Assembly: GCF_016593255.1 (NCBI RefSeq)
Contig: NZ_AP023212.1
Location: 1,706,501 to 1,770,500 of the forward strand
Direction of reading: 5' to 3'
Length of the DNA stretch: 64,000 nt
DNA from: Hydrogenimonas urashimensis
GTDB lineage: Bacteria > Campylobacterota > Campylobacteria > Campylobacterales > Hydrogenimonadaceae
Positions within the stretch are counted from its first letter, which is position 1; each line of letters starts with the position of its first letter. The position numbers and the translations under genes are program-made. Below the pieces are notes generated by a model, which did no database searches, was not told the origin of the DNA, and saw only the letters and a list, made by a program, of their open reading frames with translations. This document shows, in pieces, positions 2,028 to 42,384 of this stretch.

Positions 2028-2070
2028 TTGCAATCGCCGGGGTTTTCTTACCCGGCGAAGATATTGCAAT
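2027..2070 (+). terminator. Hairpin after the receptor gene (weak terminator candidate)
   Basis: A perfect 7-bp stem CGCCGGG (2035-2041) / CCCGGCG (2051-2057) with a 9-nt loop begins just after the stop codon. It is flanked on both sides by the palindrome ATTGCAAT (2027-2034 and 2063-2070), which can extend the pairing. No T tract follows, so intrinsic termination is uncertain. Confidence 0.4.
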
Positions 2071-2135
2071 ATAAAATCCTCCTTAATAAAATAGTTAATT
2101 CCCGATCAACAGATTTTAAGCCTATATTCATAAAA

Positions 2136-9847: not shown

Positions 9848-11346
9848 TGCGCCGCGCTCTCTTTTTTCTTCTGTCGCCTTTTTTGCTTTTTTCCTCGACC
9901 CTGCATCTTTCTCTTGGGGCCAATCCCAGCCGCATCAATCCGCTTCTGGCGACCGACAGTGCCAGCGGGGAGATCAGCGGCTGGATTTTCAACGGACTCG
10001 TCAAATTCGACAAAGAGGCGAAAATCGTGGGGGACCTGGCGGAGTCGTGGGAGTTTAAGACGCCGACGCGGCTCGTTTTCCATCTTCGGCATGGCGTGAC
10101 ATGGCACGACGGCAAGCCGTTTACGGCACACGATGTCGCATACACTTTCAAACTTACGCGTTCCGCCAAGCTCATCACCCCCTACACGAGCGATTTCCGC
10201 TTTGTCGAATCGGTGACGGCCCGTGACGACTATACGGTGGAAGTGGTCTACAAAGAGCCCTATTACAAGGCGCTTTCGATCTGGATGATGGGTATTCTGC
10301 CCAAACACCTGTGGGAGAAGGTGGAAGATCCGATGACGTCCGAACTCAACCGCCATCCTGTAGGAACCGGTCCCTACAGGCTCGAATCGCTGGAAAATTC
10401 CGGCGATGCCATACTGGTCGCCAATCGTGACTATTTCGAACACGCTCCCCGAATCGAATCGATCCATTACCATTTCATGCCCGATCCCACGACACAGTTT
10501 TTGATGCTCAAAGCGCGCAAACTCGATCTCGGATCCTTGACACCGTTGCAGATCAAGAAGCAGATCGACGCTTCTTTCAAAGAGTACTACCGCATCATCC
10601 GGCTGCCGGGCCGGGGGTACACCTATTTGGGTTTCAATCTGAAACTCGACAAGTTCAAAGATCCGAAAGTGCGCGAAGCGATCGACCTCGCCATCGACAA
10701 AGAAGAGTTGATCAAAATCCTCTTTTTCTCTTACGCAAAAGTGTGCCGCGGTCCCTTCATGCCGCATACGTTCGCCTATCCTGACCGTCTGCCGCCCACC
10801 TCATACGATCCCAAGCGGGCGAAGAGGCTTTTGAAGGATGCGGGCTACGATGACAAACACCCTCTTGAATTTACGATATCCACCAACGCCAACAATACTA
10901 CCCGGCTCTATGCGGCGCAGATTATCCAGTATCAGCTTGGAAAGGTGGGTATCAAAGTGAAAATACGCGCAATGGAGTGGCAGGCTTTTTTGAATACCGT
11001 CGTTACGCCGCGACGTTTCGAAGTGATACTGCTTGGCTGGAGCCTGGGGCTCATTCCCGATGCTTACGCCCTGTGGCACTCCGATTCTGACAAACTTGGC
11101 GGATTCAACCTCGTCGGGTTCAAAAATGCGGAAGTGGATCGGCTTATCGAGGAGGCGGAACGGACAACCGATATGGAGAAAGTCGGCCGTCTCTATCGAA
11201 AAATGTTCGTTGAAATCGCCCAAGAGAGGCCCTATATCTTTCTTTATATTCCCGATTCCCTGACGGTGGTGAATCGGCAGATCACCCCCATCGTTCCTTC
11301 CATTATCGGGATCATGCACAACCAGATCGACTGGATCAAGCCGTGA
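9847..11346 (+). CDS. Extracellular solute-binding protein family 5 (peptide/nickel type)
   Basis: A 499-residue protein with a signal peptide (about residues 1-25, no lipobox Cys) and a family-5 binding-protein fold. Typical family features are NPLLATDSASGEISGWIFNGLVKFD, a GDLAESWEF segment, HDGKPFTAHDVAYTF and RHPVGTGPYRLES. Family members bind oligopeptides, dipeptides or metal chelates for an ABC importer. No permease or ATPase gene adjoins it, so its transporter must be elsewhere or it acts alone. It overlaps the rhodanese gene by one base and the HAD gene by four. Confidence 0.88.
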   Translation: MRRALFFLLSPFLLFSSTLHLSLGANPSRINPLLATDSASGEISGWIFNGLVKFDKEAKIVGDLAESWEFKTPTRLVFHLRHGVTWHDGKPFTAHDVAYTFKLTRSAKLITPYTSDFRFVESVTARDDYTVEVVYKEPYYKALSIWMMGILPKHLWEKVEDPMTSELNRHPVGTGPYRLESLENSGDAILVANRDYFEHAPRIESIHYHFMPDPTTQFLMLKARKLDLGSLTPLQIKKQIDASFKEYYRIIRLPGRGYTYLGFNLKLDKFKDPKVREAIDLAIDKEELIKILFFSYAKVCRGPFMPHTFAYPDRLPPTSYDPKRAKRLLKDAGYDDKHPLEFTISTNANNTTRLYAAQIIQYQLGKVGIKVKIRAMEWQAFLNTVVTPRRFEVILLGWSLGLIPDAYALWHSDSDKLGGFNLVGFKNAEVDRLIEEAERTTDMEKVGRLYRKMFVEIAQERPYIFLYIPDSLTVVNRQITPIVPSIIGIMHNQIDWIKP

Positions 11347-15280: not shown

Positions 15281-15404
15281 GTGAAAAACTAAAAACTAAA
15301 ATTTTTTCTTTCTATACAATACAATATCAATCATCAGATATACCATGCAATTATCACACGTCGGCAAATACCGAAATTTTAGTTTTTAGTTTTTAGTTCA
15401 AAAG
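15281..15404 (+). repeat. Heptad-repeat element A (inverted arms) before luxS
   Basis: The left arm has GTGAAAA then two ACTAAAA units (15281-15301). The right arm has three exact TTTTAGT units (15377-15397), the reverse complement of ACTAAAA. A core of about 75 bases lies between. The right arm runs into CAAAAGGA, which serves as the luxS ribosome-binding region. The same right-arm architecture recurs before hom. Confidence 0.8.
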
Positions 15405-15411
15405 GATTGCC

Positions 15412-32364: not shown

Positions 32365-35300
32365 ATGAAAAGTCTCTTTTTTTTGATTGTATCGGTTTTT
32401 TTGGTCCATCTCTCTCTTTTCGCCGCTGCGATTCCCGAAGCGGAATGGAGGATGGATGCCTGTGGCTGGGGCGGTTCAACCGGCGAGGTGAGGGACAGCA
32501 GCGGCAACGGGTACGACGGGACGGCCCACGCTGCGACGACCCGGGAGGCCAAACTGTGTCGCGGGGGCGATTTCAGCGCGGACGGGATAAAGGATTACGT
32601 GGCGTTGGATCATCGGGCGATGGACGGGTTGGATGATTTTTCGGTATCGGTGTGGATCAAAACGTCCCAAAGCGGGAATTTCGGCATCATATCGGGGGCC
32701 AACGATTCATACGATAACGAGATGCTGATGTGGTTCATGAAAGACGGGAAGACATTTTACCCATTTCTTCATGGGCATTACAAAGGAGTTTCGATTTCCG
32801 ATGTATCCGACGGCCAATGGCACCATCTGGTCTGGACACGTCACAGCACGACGAACTGCCTTTATGTCGACGGGTCGAAAGAGGGGTGCGTGGATATAGA
32901 CCACGGAGACGGCCCCATAAGAATCGATCCGGGTGGTCTCATCGTGGCCCAGGAGCAGGACAGTGTGGGAGGCCGTTTCGATGCCAAACAGGATTTCGAA
33001 GGGGTGATGGACGAACTGAAAATATTTTCGACCACGTTGAGCGACACTCAGATTCAAACGATCTATGAAAACGAAAAGAGTGGAAAGAATTATGAAGGAA
33101 GCGCAAGGGAGTGCCCCTGCCGTTTCGATCTCGCCGCGGAGTACAGGCTCGATGCCTGCCGATGGAGCGGAACCGGTGCCGATGTGATCGACGATTCCGG
33201 TCGGGGTTACGATCTTGTAGCGGAAAACGGTGCCTTTACGACGGAGGGAGAAGTGTGCCGAAGCGGCCATTTCAACGGCTCTGACGCCAAACTCAAAGGA
33301 GCGTGGCAATACGAGTTTCACAACGCCGTGACACTGACCGCCTGGATCAAAACCACGGGAGGGCATGGGCATTATGCACGAATCGTCGAATTTTCAAGCC
33401 ACGGTGGTAATTATAAATACGGCACGGCATTGGCGTACGATAAAAATGGAAAAGTTTTGAGGGGTTGGACAGCCAACGCCGACGGCGAACGATCGGAAGA
33501 GGTGGCATACGATATGGAAGCCAACGGATACCACGACGGCCGATGGCATCATGTCGCCTATGTTTACGACGGTACCCGTGCCACCCTCTATATAGACGGC
33601 AAGAACGTGAACGAGGTGTCGACGGATATCAAGAACATCGAGGATCCTACGACACTGGCCATCGGTGGCTACTATCCTGCCGATGGGTACAGTTTCAAAG
33701 GAGAGATAGACGAAGTCAAAATCTTCTCCAACGCTTTGAGTCCCAAGCAGATCGATATGGTCTATCGCAACGAATCTTCCGGGAAAAACTACAATGGTTC
33801 GAGGCGGGTATGCGGTTGTCTCATACCACGGGCCGCCTACCGGATGGACGAGTGCATGTGGGAGGGCGGTTCAACCGGCGAGGTGAGGGACAGCAGCGGC
33901 AACGGGTACGACGGGACGGCCCACGCTGCGACGACCCGGGAGGCCAAACTGTGTCGCGGGGGCGATTTCAGCGCGGACGGGATAAAGGATTACGTGGCGT
34001 TGGATCATCGGGCGATGGACGGGTTGGATGATTTTTCGGTATCGGTGTGGATCAAAACGTCCCAAAGCGGGAATTTCGGCATCATATCGGGGGCCAACGA
34101 TTCATACGATAACGAGATGCTGATGTGGTTCATGAAAGACGGGAAGACATTTTACCCATTTCTTCATGGGCATTACAAAGGAGTTTCGATTTCCGATGTA
34201 TCCGACGGCCAATGGCACCATCTGGTCTGGACACGTCACAGCACGACGAACTGCCTTTATGTCGACGGGTCGAAAGAGGGGTGCGTGGATATAGACCACG
34301 GAGACGGCCCCATAAGAATCGATCCGGGTGGTCTCATCGTGGCCCAGGAGCAGGACAGTGTGGGAGGCCGTTTCGATGCCAAACAGGATTTCGAAGGGGT
34401 GATGGACGAACTGAAGGTATACGATGCCGTGCTCGAGGGGAGGCAGATTGAAAAGATATACGAAAACGAGCGCAACCATTTCAATGTAGACGGAACCCAA
34501 CGTCTCTGTCTATGCTGTGTGGCAAAATCCTATCGCGGGGCGTTGGCACCGCTTCAGTTCGAAGGGGAGGAGGTGGTGCTTCACAACACACTGGAGGACC
34601 CGACATGGACCCATATCTCCTTCAAACAGCCCTTCCGAACCGTTCCCGTCGTTTTCATACTGCCAACGACAAGAGGCGATCACCCGGCTGCGACGCGCAT
34701 CAAAAATGTCACAACGGAGGGGTTCGACGCCATCATGGCGGAGCCACAGGGGGAAGACGGTCCCCACTACGATCAGCATGTGAATTATCTGGCCATTACA
34801 CCGGGAATTCACAAAGTGGGCAATACCATTTTCGAAGTCGGGAGCATCACGACGAAAAAACGGCAGCAGGCATCCCAGGGAACGACGGTAGTCGATGAAT
34901 GGGCAGAAGTTCCATCGATCTTTCAGGATTGTCAGCCGGCTGTCGTCGCCCAGATTCAGTCGCTTAGGAATGAAAAAGGTCTTGACCAAACAGGGCAAGA
35001 CGCCATTGTACGGTCCAAACCCTGGATAAGTGTGGCCGTCGAGACCAATACGACAGGAGTTCATGTAGCCCTCGAGCGCAGTGAAACCGATGAAGGAGCC
35101 ATCGACAGGGCCGAAACGATCGGCTATATGCTGGCGGAAGGAAATATACAGGACAGCTTTTCTGATGATCTGAATCATACGATCACTTTCGAGACATTGT
35201 TGGCGGATCGTTATTTCATCGGGTGGGAGGATGAATGCCGGATTATCGGCTTCAAAGGGCAGTATGCCAAAATCCCGTTGATCGCCGCGACGAAAAATTC

Positions 35301-37269
35301 CCGCTATGAAAAAGATGGGGGATGGCTGCGCCGTTGCGCATTGGACAGCAAGGGGATCGGTCTGCAGATCGACGAAGACGGTTCGGCCTATTCAAAAAGC
35401 GATTACGGATACAAAGCGCCGCCTCAGGACAGAGAACGGCATCACGCTCCCGAAAAAGCGGCGATTTTCGTTTTTTCCGGAAATTTCGTCATCAGGGAGA
35501 GTGAAAACCCCCACGGCTATTTCGATGCCTGGGACAGGGACCGTCCTTTCGGTGACAGGAATATCTCTACGAAAATCGCGGGCGGGGTCTTTCCCCTCAA
35601 AGTCGTTTCGTTGACGGAAGAGGGGAAGGATGTCCAGGATTTCAACGGCACTGTCTGTTTGCGCTTGGTAAGAAAAGATGACAGATTTCCACTGAGCGGA
35701 TGGCGCAGAGTACGCTTTTTGGAAGAGAATACAACGGTCGTGACGTTCGAAACGGCTCATGCGGCGAGAAATGCCGCGGTGCATATCGTCTGGAAACGGA
35801 ATGTGGATGCCGACTGTCCTCTGTCTGATGAGGACAATGCTACCGATTCGACGGATATTTTTGCCATACGGCCTGAAAAATTTCTCTTCATCGATCCGCA
35901 GGAAGAGGCGAACCTGACGGCGGAGCATTCCTATGACTATCCCGGAGGCGTGAAAGCGGTGGGGCAGAGTGGCCAGTCCGTGATAGACTACAATACCACC
36001 GTGGTGTTGAAGCCGGTCAAAACCATGAGAAATGGGGAGATTAACGATTCGTTGGCCGGAATCTTTACCCGATCACTCTCTGCCTTTACTAATGGAGAGG
36101 CGAATCTTTCGTTCTCCTACGACGATGTCGGAATCATTGTAATGGAACTCAACGACACCACCTGGGCTTCGGTGGATACGGACGATACCCCGGAAATCAA
36201 CCGGACGGTTTACGGGGAGCGCAAAGTCGTTTTCATTCCACACCGTTTCGAACTGCTTTTCCCCGCGCAGCTGAAAATGGAAGACAACGACACCGCGAAC
36301 GGTTTCACCTATCTCTCCGGCGATCTCGCCATGAGTGCCTGGCTTCGGGGATTGACTATCGACGTGAAAGCGTTGGGCGAGCAAGGCGGTTTGATGCGCA
36401 ATTTCTCCGATCCGATGGACCGGCTTTTCGCCGACCCTGTCGATATTACGCCCATTCTGCAACTTCCGGCCAGGCACTCGCCTGCCCGTACGCTCGGCGA
36501 GCCCCAGCCCCAAAGCGGTGTCGATCTCGGTTTTGAGTCGGGCAAAGCGGTTTTGAGCTATTCGGATATCGCTTTCAACTACGACCGTCATTACGATGTG
36601 CCTCTCGATCCCTTCCGGGTGCCAGGTAGCGAGGGGAACCTTTCGGTGACGCTTCAAGACGCCGCCTATCCGTCGGTAGCGGGCAGTCTGTTTTCCGCTT
36701 TTGACGGCGGGGCGACCTTCTATTACGGAAGGGTGCGCGCGGAGGATATCCGCACCACCGAATTGGGCGTGGCGCATCGTGTCGAACTGGAGGTGTACGA
36801 CGCCCACGCGTCTCCCTTTGTTGCCGGTTTCCGCCAAAATTCGCTCCACTGGTACCGAAACGGGAAACATCGCGGCGCGGAAAACGGCGGCATCAGGGAT
36901 GCCAACGCGACAGTCGATCTCTCCCTGGGGAGTGCGAGGGATGCAAATATCCTGATAGATATAGGCCGATACGACAGCGGAACGGTGACGGTGGAGATCA
37001 ATACGACCTCCCCGCTTTCACGAAAACGGATCATCCATCTTGATATCGACAGATGGCTGTGGTACGTGCCCAAAGGGTTTGGAAGGGCCTACGCCTACGA
37101 TGCCGGCAGTGACTGCACGCAGCATCCCTGTTTTACCTACACCCTCACGCGGACAGGTGCGGCCGGAGGGGTGCAAAGCGGCGAGATCAACGGTTCCGAT
37201 TTCGATACGGGAGCGCTGGATGCCAACGCCACGTACCGGCGCAGAGAGGGAGTGAAACTTTTCCGATGA
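32365..37269 (+). CDS. mshQ: MshQ-like secreted LamG-repeat protein of the MSHA pilus locus
   Basis: A 1634-residue exported protein (signal peptide about 1-22, ending SLFAAA). Three LamG/concanavalin-like domains lie at about 27-240, 255-475 and 487-715; the first and third are identical over 184 residues. A beta-rich region at about 725-930 (FRTVPVVFILPTTRGDHPAATRI) resembles the lectin-like part of MshQ proteins. The C-terminal third (about 1430-1634, with FYYGRVRAEDIR) resembles DUF6701. No membrane anchor is seen. It is the first gene of the pilus cluster, overlapping the next gene as ATGA. By analogy it may be a pilus-associated adhesin or tip protein; the ligand is unknown. Confidence 0.72.
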   Translation: MKSLFFLIVSVFLVHLSLFAAAIPEAEWRMDACGWGGSTGEVRDSSGNGYDGTAHAATTREAKLCRGGDFSADGIKDYVALDHRAMDGLDDFSVSVWIKTSQSGNFGIISGANDSYDNEMLMWFMKDGKTFYPFLHGHYKGVSISDVSDGQWHHLVWTRHSTTNCLYVDGSKEGCVDIDHGDGPIRIDPGGLIVAQEQDSVGGRFDAKQDFEGVMDELKIFSTTLSDTQIQTIYENEKSGKNYEGSARECPCRFDLAAEYRLDACRWSGTGADVIDDSGRGYDLVAENGAFTTEGEVCRSGHFNGSDAKLKGAWQYEFHNAVTLTAWIKTTGGHGHYARIVEFSSHGGNYKYGTALAYDKNGKVLRGWTANADGERSEEVAYDMEANGYHDGRWHHVAYVYDGTRATLYIDGKNVNEVSTDIKNIEDPTTLAIGGYYPADGYSFKGEIDEVKIFSNALSPKQIDMVYRNESSGKNYNGSRRVCGCLIPRAAYRMDECMWEGGSTGEVRDSSGNGYDGTAHAATTREAKLCRGGDFSADGIKDYVALDHRAMDGLDDFSVSVWIKTSQSGNFGIISGANDSYDNEMLMWFMKDGKTFYPFLHGHYKGVSISDVSDGQWHHLVWTRHSTTNCLYVDGSKEGCVDIDHGDGPIRIDPGGLIVAQEQDSVGGRFDAKQDFEGVMDELKVYDAVLEGRQIEKIYENERNHFNVDGTQRLCLCCVAKSYRGALAPLQFEGEEVVLHNTLEDPTWTHISFKQPFRTVPVVFILPTTRGDHPAATRIKNVTTEGFDAIMAEPQGEDGPHYDQHVNYLAITPGIHKVGNTIFEVGSITTKKRQQASQGTTVVDEWAEVPSIFQDCQPAVVAQIQSLRNEKGLDQTGQDAIVRSKPWISVAVETNTTGVHVALERSETDEGAIDRAETIGYMLAEGNIQDSFSDDLNHTITFETLLADRYFIGWEDECRIIGFKGQYAKIPLIAATKNSRYEKDGGWLRRCALDSKGIGLQIDEDGSAYSKSDYGYKAPPQDRERHHAPEKAAIFVFSGNFVIRESENPHGYFDAWDRDRPFGDRNISTKIAGGVFPLKVVSLTEEGKDVQDFNGTVCLRLVRKDDRFPLSGWRRVRFLEENTTVVTFETAHAARNAAVHIVWKRNVDADCPLSDEDNATDSTDIFAIRPEKFLFIDPQEEANLTAEHSYDYPGGVKAVGQSGQSVIDYNTTVVLKPVKTMRNGEINDSLAGIFTRSLSAFTNGEANLSFSYDDVGIIVMELNDTTWASVDTDDTPEINRTVYGERKVVFIPHRFELLFPAQLKMEDNDTANGFTYLSGDLAMSAWLRGLTIDVKALGEQGGLMRNFSDPMDRLFADPVDITPILQLPARHSPARTLGEPQPQSGVDLGFESGKAVLSYSDIAFNYDRHYDVPLDPFRVPGSEGNLSVTLQDAAYPSVAGSLFSAFDGGATFYYGRVRAEDIRTTELGVAHRVELEVYDAHASPFVAGFRQNSLHWYRNGKHRGAENGGIRDANATVDLSLGSARDANILIDIGRYDSGTVTVEINTTSPLSRKRIIHLDIDRWLWYVPKGFGRAYAYDAGSDCTQHPCFTYTLTRTGAAGGVQSGEINGSDFDTGALDANATYRRREGVKLFR
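32469..33020 (+). repeat. 552-bp direct repeat in mshQ-like gene, copy 1
   Basis: This stretch and 33864-34415 match base for base as far as I can compare them by eye, at a constant offset of 1395 bases (in frame). Flanking bases diverge at once on both sides. It encodes most of the first LamG domain. Confidence 0.93.
33864..34415 (+). repeat. 552-bp direct repeat in mshQ-like gene, copy 2
   Basis: Second copy of the repeat at 32469-33020, encoding the third LamG domain. The middle LamG domain between them is a diverged homologue and does not share the nucleotide identity. Confidence 0.93.
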
Positions 37270-37907
37270 GACGGGCACTGACGATGGTGGAGCTGATTTT
37301 CACGATGGTGATCATCGGACTTGTCTTCATGGTGATCCCGAAAATCATTTTCGTGACCAACAAGAGTCTCGAAACGAGTGTCAAAGAGGATGCGCTCTAC
37401 AACGCGATGGCGCTGATGGGCATTATCGTCCGTCTGCCATGGGACGAGGAGAATACGAAATATGACCAGATACTGACCCCTTCCGCGGGAAGAAACGACT
37501 ACCGCTGCGACAGTTCCACAGGATTCTACCGCGTCGGGGGATTCAGGGGATCGCGCAACTGTATCGACAACAGCGTGACCCCGATGAACGCCTCCATGAG
37601 CCTCGGCAGGGAAGACGCCCTCTTCAACGATCTCGATGACTACGACGGCTACACGATCGAGACGACCACCCCCTACGGTTCGAAATACCGGCTCGATGTG
37701 ACGGTGCGCTATCTTCAGGACCCGCCGGCCGGAAGAGACGTCGATCTCTCGACACTGACATCCGCCTCCGGATCGACCGACATCAAGGAGGTTAGAGTGA
37801 CGGTGTCGAACGCTGCGGCGAGGAAGAAAGCTCCTTTTTCGGCATCGCTGTACTATCATGCCGTCAATCTCGGGCAGATCCGCATCAACAAAAGGGCGTG
37901 GCGATGA
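37266..37907 (+). CDS. Type IV pseudopilin, minor (MSHA locus)
   Basis: A 213-residue prepilin-like protein. The short leader MRRA is followed by LTMVELIFTMVIIGLVF, with Glu at mature position 5 and Ala rather than Gly before the cleavage site. One hydrophobic helix is followed by a globular domain with two Cys (about 79 and 99). It probably corresponds to one of MshC/MshD/MshO. Its ATG overlaps the upstream TGA. Confidence 0.82.
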   Translation: MRRALTMVELIFTMVIIGLVFMVIPKIIFVTNKSLETSVKEDALYNAMALMGIIVRLPWDEENTKYDQILTPSAGRNDYRCDSSTGFYRVGGFRGSRNCIDNSVTPMNASMSLGREDALFNDLDDYDGYTIETTTPYGSKYRLDVTVRYLQDPPAGRDVDLSTLTSASGSTDIKEVRVTVSNAAARKKAPFSASLYYHAVNLGQIRINKRAWR

Positions 37908-38839
37908 GACGGGCTTTTACGCTGATCGAGATTATCATGGTGATCGTCATAACCGGTATTCTCGCCATCGGGACCTTCAAAGCGCTCAACGCCCTTTTTA
38001 TCCGCAGTGTCAAAGCGCGGGCCGTGACGGAACTCTCACTCAACACTCAGGCGGTGCTCGATCAGCTCAGTATGCTTCTGTATAACCGCATTCCCGCTTC
38101 GGTCATCGGTTACGATCCTTCGGACGGGAGCGTCCAGCCGCTGGGGAGCATACTTTCGGCCAAACCGGTTCTCGAATGGCTGGGGACCGCCGAAGAGGCT
38201 TTGACATTTCGAAAGTACAGCGGATTTATAGATATGAACAGAAGTTCATATGCCACCCGGACGCTTTTCTCGCCTGATAGCGACGGGTTTGCGCTCAACA
38301 GGAGTGAGCAGCTGAAATTCGGCCATTCGGAGGATATATACGGCAAGGACCTGATCCGCCTGGTCTTTGCCGGGACTTTCGACGAGGGGGATGTGGCCGC
38401 GGGCGATCCCGTCAACGCCTTTGCATGGCACGGGGGGAGAGCCGACGGAATCTTCGCGATCCGGATGCGGCAGAATGGCGAAATCGTACTGAGCGGTTCG
38501 CCTGCCTACATTTACGAAAAGTACTATCTCGCCGACAGCGCCTACGCCGTGGCACGGGCGAAGGAGATCGACAAGAACGCCGCCTGCATCAAAAATCTGC
38601 CGACGAAAGTGGCCGATGAAACGCTGCTGCTCTTTTACGACTACCGGCCGTGGAAGGGGGAGAGTTTCTGCGCCGATCCGAAAGGCGCACAGGCGGGCAA
38701 AGTGACCGTGCTGGCGGAGGATGTGTCGGGATTCCGCGCCGAGACGGTCAACCGCACGATCCGTCTTGGCATCGACATGTTGCGAGCCGTCCGTGGTGCC
38801 TCGCCGGTGCATATCTCCAAGCAGAAGGTGGTGTTTTGA
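37904..38839 (+). CDS. Type IV pseudopilin, MshO-like minor pilin
   Basis: A 311-residue prepilin with leader MRRA and mature start FTLIEIIMVIVITGILAIG (Glu5 present). The large size suits MshO-type or GspJ-type minor pilins. I chose ATG 37904 because the leader then has normal length and AAAGGG lies about 9 bases upstream; GTG 37898 is an alternative. It overlaps its neighbours by four bases upstream and one base downstream. Confidence 0.82.
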   Translation: MRRAFTLIEIIMVIVITGILAIGTFKALNALFIRSVKARAVTELSLNTQAVLDQLSMLLYNRIPASVIGYDPSDGSVQPLGSILSAKPVLEWLGTAEEALTFRKYSGFIDMNRSSYATRTLFSPDSDGFALNRSEQLKFGHSEDIYGKDLIRLVFAGTFDEGDVAAGDPVNAFAWHGGRADGIFAIRMRQNGEIVLSGSPAYIYEKYYLADSAYAVARAKEIDKNAACIKNLPTKVADETLLLFYDYRPWKGESFCADPKGAQAGKVTVLAEDVSGFRAETVNRTIRLGIDMLRAVRGASPVHISKQKVVF

Positions 38840-39390
38840 TGTTCAAAAAACGGGAAACGGACAACGGAAAACGACAATGCGGAAGTGTCGCCGGGCATTT
38901 ATGGCACCTTCGATTTTTGGTTTCTGCTGCCCGATTCCCGACTACCCGCCGTCCCGCTTTCGGCATATGGCAGGCTCTCATCATCATTCTGATCGTCAGC
39001 GGTCTGATGGTGGTAGCGATGCGCTACGCGAAGATCGGGGCGGTCCATACCGCAGACAGCTACACAAGGGAGCAGGCGGAACTCTTCTTGCAAAGCGCCG
39101 TGGAGATCGCGTTGCTGCAGATCGCCGGGCACAAGAGGAGTTCGGAGTGTCTCGACCGCGTGCATCTGGTCTCCCGGGACGGAAAATTCACGGCCGATAT
39201 CGCCATCACCCGGTACTATCTTCTTGCAGGAAGCGCCGATCTGTCCGTCTGCGGAACGCTCGGATACCCTGTCGAAACGGAAGAGTCGCACGGCATGGTG
39301 ATGATGGAAGCCGTGGTCCAGAGCGTCCCGGGGCACCCAAAGGTGATTCATCCGGTGCGGCTCGTCAGAAGGATGGTGCAGCGGCCATGA
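38839..39390 (+). CDS. MshP/PilX-like pseudopilin with repeat-expanded leader
   Basis: A 183-residue protein. The hydrophobic helix IWQALIIILIVSGLMVVAM begins after FG at residues 41-42 and lacks Glu5, as in MshP, PilX and GspK. The sequence before it is 42 residues long, much longer than usual, because heptad element F lies between the start codon and the normal leader. A TTG at 38917 would give a 16-residue leader but has no ribosome-binding site, whereas ATG 38839 follows AAGGTGG and the TGATG overlap. Whether the long leader is still processed is unknown. Confidence 0.75.
   Translation: MFKKRETDNGKRQCGSVAGHLWHLRFLVSAARFPTTRRPAFGIWQALIIILIVSGLMVVAMRYAKIGAVHTADSYTREQAELFLQSAVEIALLQIAGHKRSSECLDRVHLVSRDGKFTADIAITRYYLLAGSADLSVCGTLGYPVETEESHGMVMMEAVVQSVPGHPKVIHPVRLVRRMVQRP
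38847..38955 (+). repeat. Heptad-repeat element F, inside the MshP-like coding start
   Basis: The left arm has AAAACGG, GAAACGG, ACAACGG, AAAACGA, CAATGCG (38847-38881). The right arm has CCGATTC, CCGACTA, CCCGCCG (38931-38951). Its reverse complement matches the left arm at about 12 of 17 aligned bases. A core of about 45 bases lies between. The reading frame stays open through the element. Confidence 0.7.
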
Positions 39391-39857
39391 AAAACAGAGC
39401 CTTTACCCTGATCGAACTGATTTTCGTCCTGATTCTCGTAGGAATACTCGGGAGCACTGCTGCCGCACTGTTCCGTCCGGACCGGCTGCTGAACGACACC
39501 AAATTCATCCTCGCCAAAATCATGAAAACCCGGTACGAGGCGATCGGCTACGACCACAGAAACTTCGACGGATCGATGACGCATGCCCCAATCGGCTGCC
39601 TGAGGCTTCAAAAGGGTGCGCTCGAAGACAACCGCTCCATCGCGGGCAGCTACCGGATGAAAGAGAGTACGGCCATCACCTTCGGGGGCATCGGCGGGAA
39701 CACAATTTGCTTTGACTCCCTAGGACGGCCTCACGACGGGGACTTCAGTCTCGCTTCACTTCTCCATCGGCCGGTCGATATTAATGTAAGCAACGGAAAA
39801 AAAACCTATTCGATCATCGTCTATCCGGTGAGCGGATATGTTACAATGAAATATTAA
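39387..39857 (+). CDS. Type IV pseudopilin (GspH/MshC-like)
   Basis: A 156-residue prepilin with leader MKNRA and mature start [17 protein letters not shown] (Glu5 present), then a small globular domain with two Cys in a disulfide-like spacing (about 73 and 113). It overlaps the upstream gene as ATGA and ends the minor-pilin group, 18 bases before mshI. Confidence 0.85.
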   Translation: MKNRAFTLIELIFVLILVGILGSTAAALFRPDRLLNDTKFILAKIMKTRYEAIGYDHRNFDGSMTHAPIGCLRLQKGALEDNRSIAGSYRMKESTAITFGGIGGNTICFDSLGRPHDGDFSLASLLHRPVDINVSNGKKTYSIIVYPVSGYVTMKY

Positions 39858-41977: not shown

Positions 41978-42384
41978 AATTTTTCGCCGCTCTTCTTTTC
42001 GCCTCGGCGCTCTCCCTTTGTGCCGCAAGCGGGATCGATGTCGGAACCATTGTGAAAAAGTTCGAGAAGGTGGGGGCTTGGCGCCTGCCTCCGACGCCCG
42101 ACTACGAAGTGTACGACCCTTTCAAACGTGCCGAACCGCTGATGAAAAAGAGTGGCCCAAGGGTGCCGCCGAAAGTGCGCAGGACAACGATCCGGGTAAC
42201 CGCCGTCATGAACGACAAGGCATTCGTCAACGGCCGATGGGTAGGAAAAGGAAGCCGTGTGGGTTCATACCGAATCATCGATGTCCGCGCCGACGGCATT
42301 GTGGTCAAAGAGGGGAACAAAAGGCTTTTGCTTCCTTTGAAACGTGAAAGAAAACTCTTGCAGATCAAGGATAAACAACCATGA
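41974..42384 (+). CDS. mshK: MshK-like periplasmic pilus protein
   Basis: A 136-residue exported protein (signal peptide about 1-19) with a DPFKRAEP segment and a GspC-homology-region-like core (VTAVMNDKAFVNGRWVGKGS, VGSYRIIDVRADGIVV), as in MshK and PilP. It is thought to connect the inner-membrane complex to the secretin. GTG start overlapping the upstream stop as GTGA. Confidence 0.78.
   Translation: MKFFAALLFASALSLCAASGIDVGTIVKKFEKVGAWRLPPTPDYEVYDPFKRAEPLMKKSGPRVPPKVRRTTIRVTAVMNDKAFVNGRWVGKGSRVGSYRIIDVRADGIVVKEGNKRLLLPLKRERKLLQIKDKQP

Follow-up and report, generated by a model that had tools for sequence, protein, structure and literature searches.

In Hydrogenimonas urashimensis, an element of heptanucleotide repeats has quite probably inserted, or grown, directly after the ATG of an MshP-like prepilin gene, at its TGATG overlap with the preceding gene, where it would be tolerated within a discarded leader; the same is likely to have happened in other prepilin genes of Hydrogenimonas. 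We analyzed a stretch of 64,000 nucleotides (the window) of this 2.30 Mb, single-contig genome (G000), together with related genomes. Features of the window are collected in Table 1.

Table 1. Features at the start of the MshP-like gene and in its surroundings (window positions).
Feature	Position	Strand	Details
MshO-like prepilin gene, upstream	37898-38839	+	N_methyl motif, Pfam PF07963 22.2 bits; stop overlaps mshP start
Shine-Dalgarno-like AGAAGGTGG	38823-38831	+	7 nt before the ATG; conserved in orthologues; left intact by the insertion
MshP-like putative prepilin gene	38839-39390	+	183 codons, open frame; orthologues in the genus
In-frame insertion, about 108 bp, directly after the ATG	38842-38949	+	site empty in sister species; ends ambiguous by a few bases
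Left heptad array, about 4 units, AAAACGG / AAACGGG / AACGGAC type	38847-38873	+	AAACGGGAAACGGACAACGGAAAACGACAA; period 7 by Tandem Repeats Finder
Middle segment, 54 bases	38874-38927	+	between the two arms
Alternative in-frame start TTG	38917-38919	+	the sole one; weak; would give a 14-residue leader; no Shine-Dalgarno sequence in front
Right arm, degenerate G-rich array, units of about 7-8 nt	38928-38956	-	CGGGACGG CGGGTAGT CGGGAAT CGGGCA; inverted relative to the left arm
Prepilin cleavage motif RRPA^F	38947-38961	+	predicted cut A40/F41, from the sequence and the orthologue alignment
Downstream prepilin gene	39387-39857	+	short leader MKNRA^FTLIE; Pfam PF07963 23.9 bits

The MshP-like gene is the third of four prepilin-type genes that follow one another head to tail with overlaps (37266-39857), and its ATG (38839-38841) overlaps the TGA of the upstream gene (38837-38839; junction TTTTGATG). 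Read from this ATG the product begins MFKKRETDNGKRQCGSVAGHLWHLRFLVSAARFPTTRRPA^FGIWQALIIILI, so that the leader, MFKKRETDNGKRQCGSVAGHLWHLRFLVSAARFPTTRRPA, is 40 residues long up to the predicted cleavage site; the earlier note had described an N-terminal region of 42 residues before the hydrophobic helix, which is essentially right. The leader ends in RRPA^FGIWQALIIILIVSG and leads into the helix FGIWQALIIILIVSGLMVVAM. The protein thus has the form of a class III signal peptide, a hydrophilic leader ending in Gly or Ala and then a hydrophobic helix of about 20 residues (RRPA^FGIWQALIIILIVSGLMVVAM), which is kept in the orthologues. The N_methyl and TIGR02532 profiles match the neighbouring genes but not this protein, in which Glu5 is absent (FGIWQ), and no Pfam or NCBIfam family scored above its cut-off. 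Motif and operon point to a prepilin, and the putative name MshP rests on position and motif. A secretin near the prepilin cluster (at 42381) has its best match in TIGR02519 MshL (222 bits, cut-off 250), and one gene for an A24 prepilin peptidase is present in each of G000, the sister species (G009) and another Hydrogenimonas (G008). At the head of the pilus operon (32365-37269) lies the gene for a 1634-residue protein with repeated domains, whose best NCBIfam match is to the TafC fimbrial protein (121 bits, cut-off 410).

To see how this leader compares with those of relatives, MshP orthologues were fetched from 60 of them and their 5' ends compared. The sister species (G009/L003), whose protein is 86% identical in the mature part, has an empty site, in which TTCTGATG is directly followed by CGGCGGGCGTTT (TTCTGATG|CGGCGGGCGTTTGGA) to give MRRA^FG. 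A tree built on three proteins of the operon groups G000 with its sister G009 (support 1.0), G004 branching next (0.956); G008 falls elsewhere, at a position that is not firm. Insertion-free orthologues with 6-residue leaders are also found in G001, G002, G006 and G014, and distant orthologues are likewise short. Most other MshP orthologues have leaders of 4-6 residues, and the short forms include M-RRAFG, MKA-RGAFG, MAA-RRGFG and MRS-RGGFG. Consistent with the earlier proposal that the ancestral start codon stood closely before RRPAFG, such short forms thus occur in the sister and most of the genus. An equally long leader without the repeat, which had been named as the observation that would speak against an insertion, was absent from all orthologues but one; the exception, G004, has an extension of 18-19 residues without heptads, which is itself a different, palindrome-ended insert. 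The 108-bp insertion is a multiple of three and free of stops, the Shine-Dalgarno sequence and ATG remain outside it, and the reading frame stays open despite the repeat, as had been claimed. Comparison of the filled and empty mshP sites revealed no evident target-site duplication, and the insertion contains no ORF of its own, so neither target duplication nor transposase marks it as a mobile element.

The description of the insertion as a heptad element is solid for its left arm and approximate for its right. The left array matches itself at period 7 in 16/21 positions, a score reached by 0/5000 mononucleotide shuffles and equalled by 0.18% of random segments of the same length from its own genome. 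Tandem Repeats Finder detected it independently, and G004, G008 and G009 have scattered arrays that share 88-96% identity with it. The right arm is weaker, with CGGG at spacings of 8, 8 and 7 and a best period-7 score of 14/21. A search of the host genome and 11 relatives for copies of the whole element recovered the left array alone, and the middle segment gave short partial matches and no full-length copy in these 12 genus genomes. Converging arms with other middles are found elsewhere in the host genome, for instance before luxS (15284-15405) and at L054 18697-18863. The arrays just before luxS have ACTAAAA units; at this intergenic position G004, G008 and G006 carry heptad arrays built of different units, and G014 and G002 carry no such array. 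The middles of elements at L045 (about 10010-10110), L054 (18697-18863) and L055 (15295-15370) share stem-loop-like motifs (GCTTCGC / GAGCGTAGCGACC), suggesting that some heptad elements may have an internal part in common.

Two further Hydrogenimonas species have inserts at the same codon of mshP. In G008 the ATG is followed by a different heptad insert of 63 bp with GGGAATC units (18/21). G004 has a third insert at this point (54-57 bp, in frame), which gave no signal when tested for period 7 (P 0.27) and which at its right end repeats the neighbouring codons almost perfectly in inverted orientation (ATCCCGAATGCGG/CCGCATTCGGGAT). A palindrome of about 25 nt spans the junction of the G004 insert (L004 1440-1530), which hints at template switching near it. 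The three inserts are unrelated in sequence, and three separate gains at the mshP start would be the simplest reading, although one old insertion may instead have been lost precisely in G009 and turned over completely elsewhere.

To determine how common such leaders are, we surveyed 141 prepilin-type genes from 10 Hydrogenimonas genomes, scoring the 170 nt before each mature start for period 7. The scores are bimodal, with 15 genes at 16-21 and the remainder at 13 or below. In 14 of the 15 high scorers the array lies within the open leader (in the 15th, from G010, it is upstream of the start), and all 14 leader arrays are in frame with the helix, where chance would give one in three. The start codon of the 14 array-bearing leaders overlaps the previous stop, the start being uncertain for GspI of G000 and GspH of G004. 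By family, leader arrays are found in 6/7 GspG, 3/7 GspH, 2/8 GspJ, 2/9 MshP and 1/6 GspI genes, with 0/7 for MshP2 and 0/97 for the remaining genes; a GspI leader array in G008, in a gene missed by the profile, is additional to the 1/6 count. Counted to the aligned motif, leaders with an array have 15-45 residues, and array-free leaders of these gene families mostly have 1-5. Five long leaders have no clear array (G000 GspG, 15 residues; G000 GspH, 25; G004 MshP, 18-19; G005 GspG, 12; G010 GspG, 12-13); unless they once held arrays that have since decayed, heptads do not account for all long leaders. The GspG arrays, in at least 7 species, could go back to one old event followed by turnover of the units, in which case there were fewer events than genes. 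The MshP-like insertion does not stand alone: the genus has at least 14 such cases, this one included. A match to the left array led to a type II secretion-like operon in G008 (L091), in which the GspH-, GspI- and GspJ-like leaders each contain converging in-frame arrays and the GspG-like leader contains one array. These four pseudopilin genes, all with leader heptad arrays, are consecutive (L091 292-2088).

Leader arrays are concentrated in prepilin genes. As a control we took 230 non-prepilin ORFs of at least 100 codons that start on an overlapping stop, from 864 kb of three genomes, and found an array within the first 180 nt of 3 (1-3 by how they are counted). One of these is an antisense ORF, another is rfaE-like and probably starts beyond its array, and the third encodes a haem-motif protein whose signal peptide is of the Sec type. 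Arrays were present in 8/48 prepilin genes of the same three genomes (Fisher P 4e-6 to 5e-5 against the controls, with kinship ignored). The array of the haem-motif (CxxCH) protein (L047, about 2046-2081, minus strand) seems to encode the positively charged n-region of its Sec-type signal peptide, and appears to represent a second kind of cleaved leader. At 22 GspG loci (69 kb) from species of the order outside Hydrogenimonas no arrays were found at the stricter cut-off of 17/21, and GspG leaders there are mostly of 4-7 residues (e.g. MKKA^F). A search of the phylum and of plasmids with an artificial heptad-leader prepilin peptide, using a query and limits too strict for the outcome to carry much weight, gave no match, and we found no open-access paper that describes heptad repeats in Hydrogenimonas or in the leaders of prepilins.

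Heptad arrays are dispersed through the sampled genomes above chance. In 464 kb of the host genome 13 arrays reach at least 16/21, where simulated sequence has 0-2; the samples of G008 and G002 have 14 and 8 per 200 kb. In the sampled host sequence they lie mostly between ORFs or at gene ends and are thus largely intergenic, the prepilin leaders being the exception. A very long array in G008 (L070 4597-4723), of more than 15 units of the GCCCAAT type, lies beside arrays with different units. As tandem 7-nt units above chance, the Hydrogenimonas arrays are a dispersed heptanucleotide repeat of the STRR or GGGNATC type. The short tandemly repeated repetitive (STRR) heptanucleotides of cyanobacteria also form degenerate arrays, including converging pairs; they belong to a different phylum, and the likeness is one of description. 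The GGGNATC repeats of Xanthomonas and Nostoc (Rehm et al. 2015, PMC4692102) are alike in their 7-nt unit, in their short arrays, often of 4 units, in being dispersed and mostly intergenic, and in occupying the same gene neighbourhoods with a sequence and length that vary between relatives; the GGGAATC unit of the G008 mshP insert is the very unit of this type. In contrast to the Hydrogenimonas arrays, which stand in frame in prepilin leaders and have far more diverse units within one genome, GGGNATC repeats were reported to be under-represented in coding regions (PMC4692102). The TAACTGA repeats of marine Beggiatoaceae (MacGregor 2015, PMC4679880) are likewise heptamer direct repeats near start codons, but they consist of a single motif with a forward stop codon, whereas the Hydrogenimonas units vary and would be translated. 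Polymerase slippage favoured at 7 nt has been suggested as the origin of heptad arrays (cited in PMC4692102 and PMC4679880).

Prepilin leaders are hydrophilic and cytoplasmic, of variable length and end in Gly or Ala, and the active site of the membrane peptidase faces the cytoplasm (PMC10191384). We propose that a short non-coding element of converging heptanucleotide arrays enters, or grows, directly after the ATG at a TGATG junction. An insert before the ATG would part the Shine-Dalgarno sequence from the start or damage the end of the upstream gene; because such inserts would be harmful, the tolerated outcome would be one after the ATG, a multiple of three in length and stop-free. In tight overlapping operons the codons after a TGATG start would be the sole site that spares the upstream stop, the spacing of Shine-Dalgarno sequence and ATG, and the mature protein. 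The extra codons would join the cytoplasmic class III leader, and the prepilin peptidase, recognising the [KR]-x-[GA]^F junction and the hydrophobic helix, would remove the whole leader, so that the mature subunit is unchanged. Selection on the frame would retain the in-frame arrays (14/14). Arrays would survive at TGATG junctions because prepilin leaders are variable and discarded, which would make these leaders places within genes where heptad arrays can land safely. It has been noted for the TAACTGA repeats that a protein might tolerate an insertion at its start (PMC4679880). The long leaders of type IVb and Streptococcus sanguinis pilins indicate that prepilin peptidases accept long leaders (PMC10191384), although these are stable family features, whereas in Hydrogenimonas the length is due to repeat insertions, which are not the same from one sister species to the next. 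We infer that the long MshP-like leader is translated and cleaved, and that it is selectively near-neutral.

Translation could instead begin at the TTG or another downstream codon, making the array an untranslated spacer before a leader of 14 residues. This in-frame TTG is present, and some pseudopilins of the genus seemingly use non-ATG starts. However, the conserved Shine-Dalgarno sequence still stands 7 nt from the original ATG with none before the TTG, and all 14 array leaders have kept their frame and stop-free sequence. In addition, the G008 mshP gene has no other in-frame start codon, so any expression of that gene must entail translation of its array. We consider a downstream start rather unlikely.

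The arrays might also be functional, with a start-proximal hairpin or G-quadruplex tuning pseudopilin translation, or with gain and loss of units switching the gene in a slow phase variation, which could occur because 7 is not a multiple of 3. Consistent with such a role, the right arm pairs with the left in the predicted RNA, G-rich heptamer arrays form G-quadruplexes in vitro, and simple repeats have been cited as enriched near N-termini (both PMC4692102); GspG leaders also keep their array in 6/7 surveyed species, the unit sequence changing. Yet the overall fold is no better than that of shuffles (z -1.3), the arrays are short (3-5 units) and imperfect, and the sister species has no array in MshP; moreover, if the loci switched, many would be expected in the off state, and 14/14 are in frame. 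A function of this kind is therefore improbable, and we also give little credence to the broader idea that leader arrays form a variable regulatory module for the pseudopilins of type II secretion and of pili, acting as a start-proximal hairpin or rare frame switch and maintained at the GspG leader across the genus as its unit sequence turns over.

The insertion into a discarded leader that we favor is also in keeping with how the rest of the protein evolves. Between G000 and G009 the mature part has a dN of 0.09, a dS of about 1.2 and a dN/dS of about 0.08, and is under purifying selection. That the insert marks a decaying gene is thus very unlikely: the window protein has somewhat more unique substitutions than that of the sister (11 versus 3 or 5 with two outgroups, 6 versus 5 with a third), but its frame is open over the full length and its motif intact. 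An ancestral long leader that the relatives have since lost is hardly credible, since although 3/9 species have extended leaders at mshP, their inserts are unrelated and the leader is short in the sister, four further Hydrogenimonas and all more distant orthologues inspected.

Heptanucleotide repeats occur widely; here, their entry into coding sequence recurs at one predictable place, the prepilin leader. The empty sites of sister species provide junction-resolved insertion events for studying how the arrays originate. Overall, pilin leader length, once a trait used in classification, can change through repeat insertion alone.
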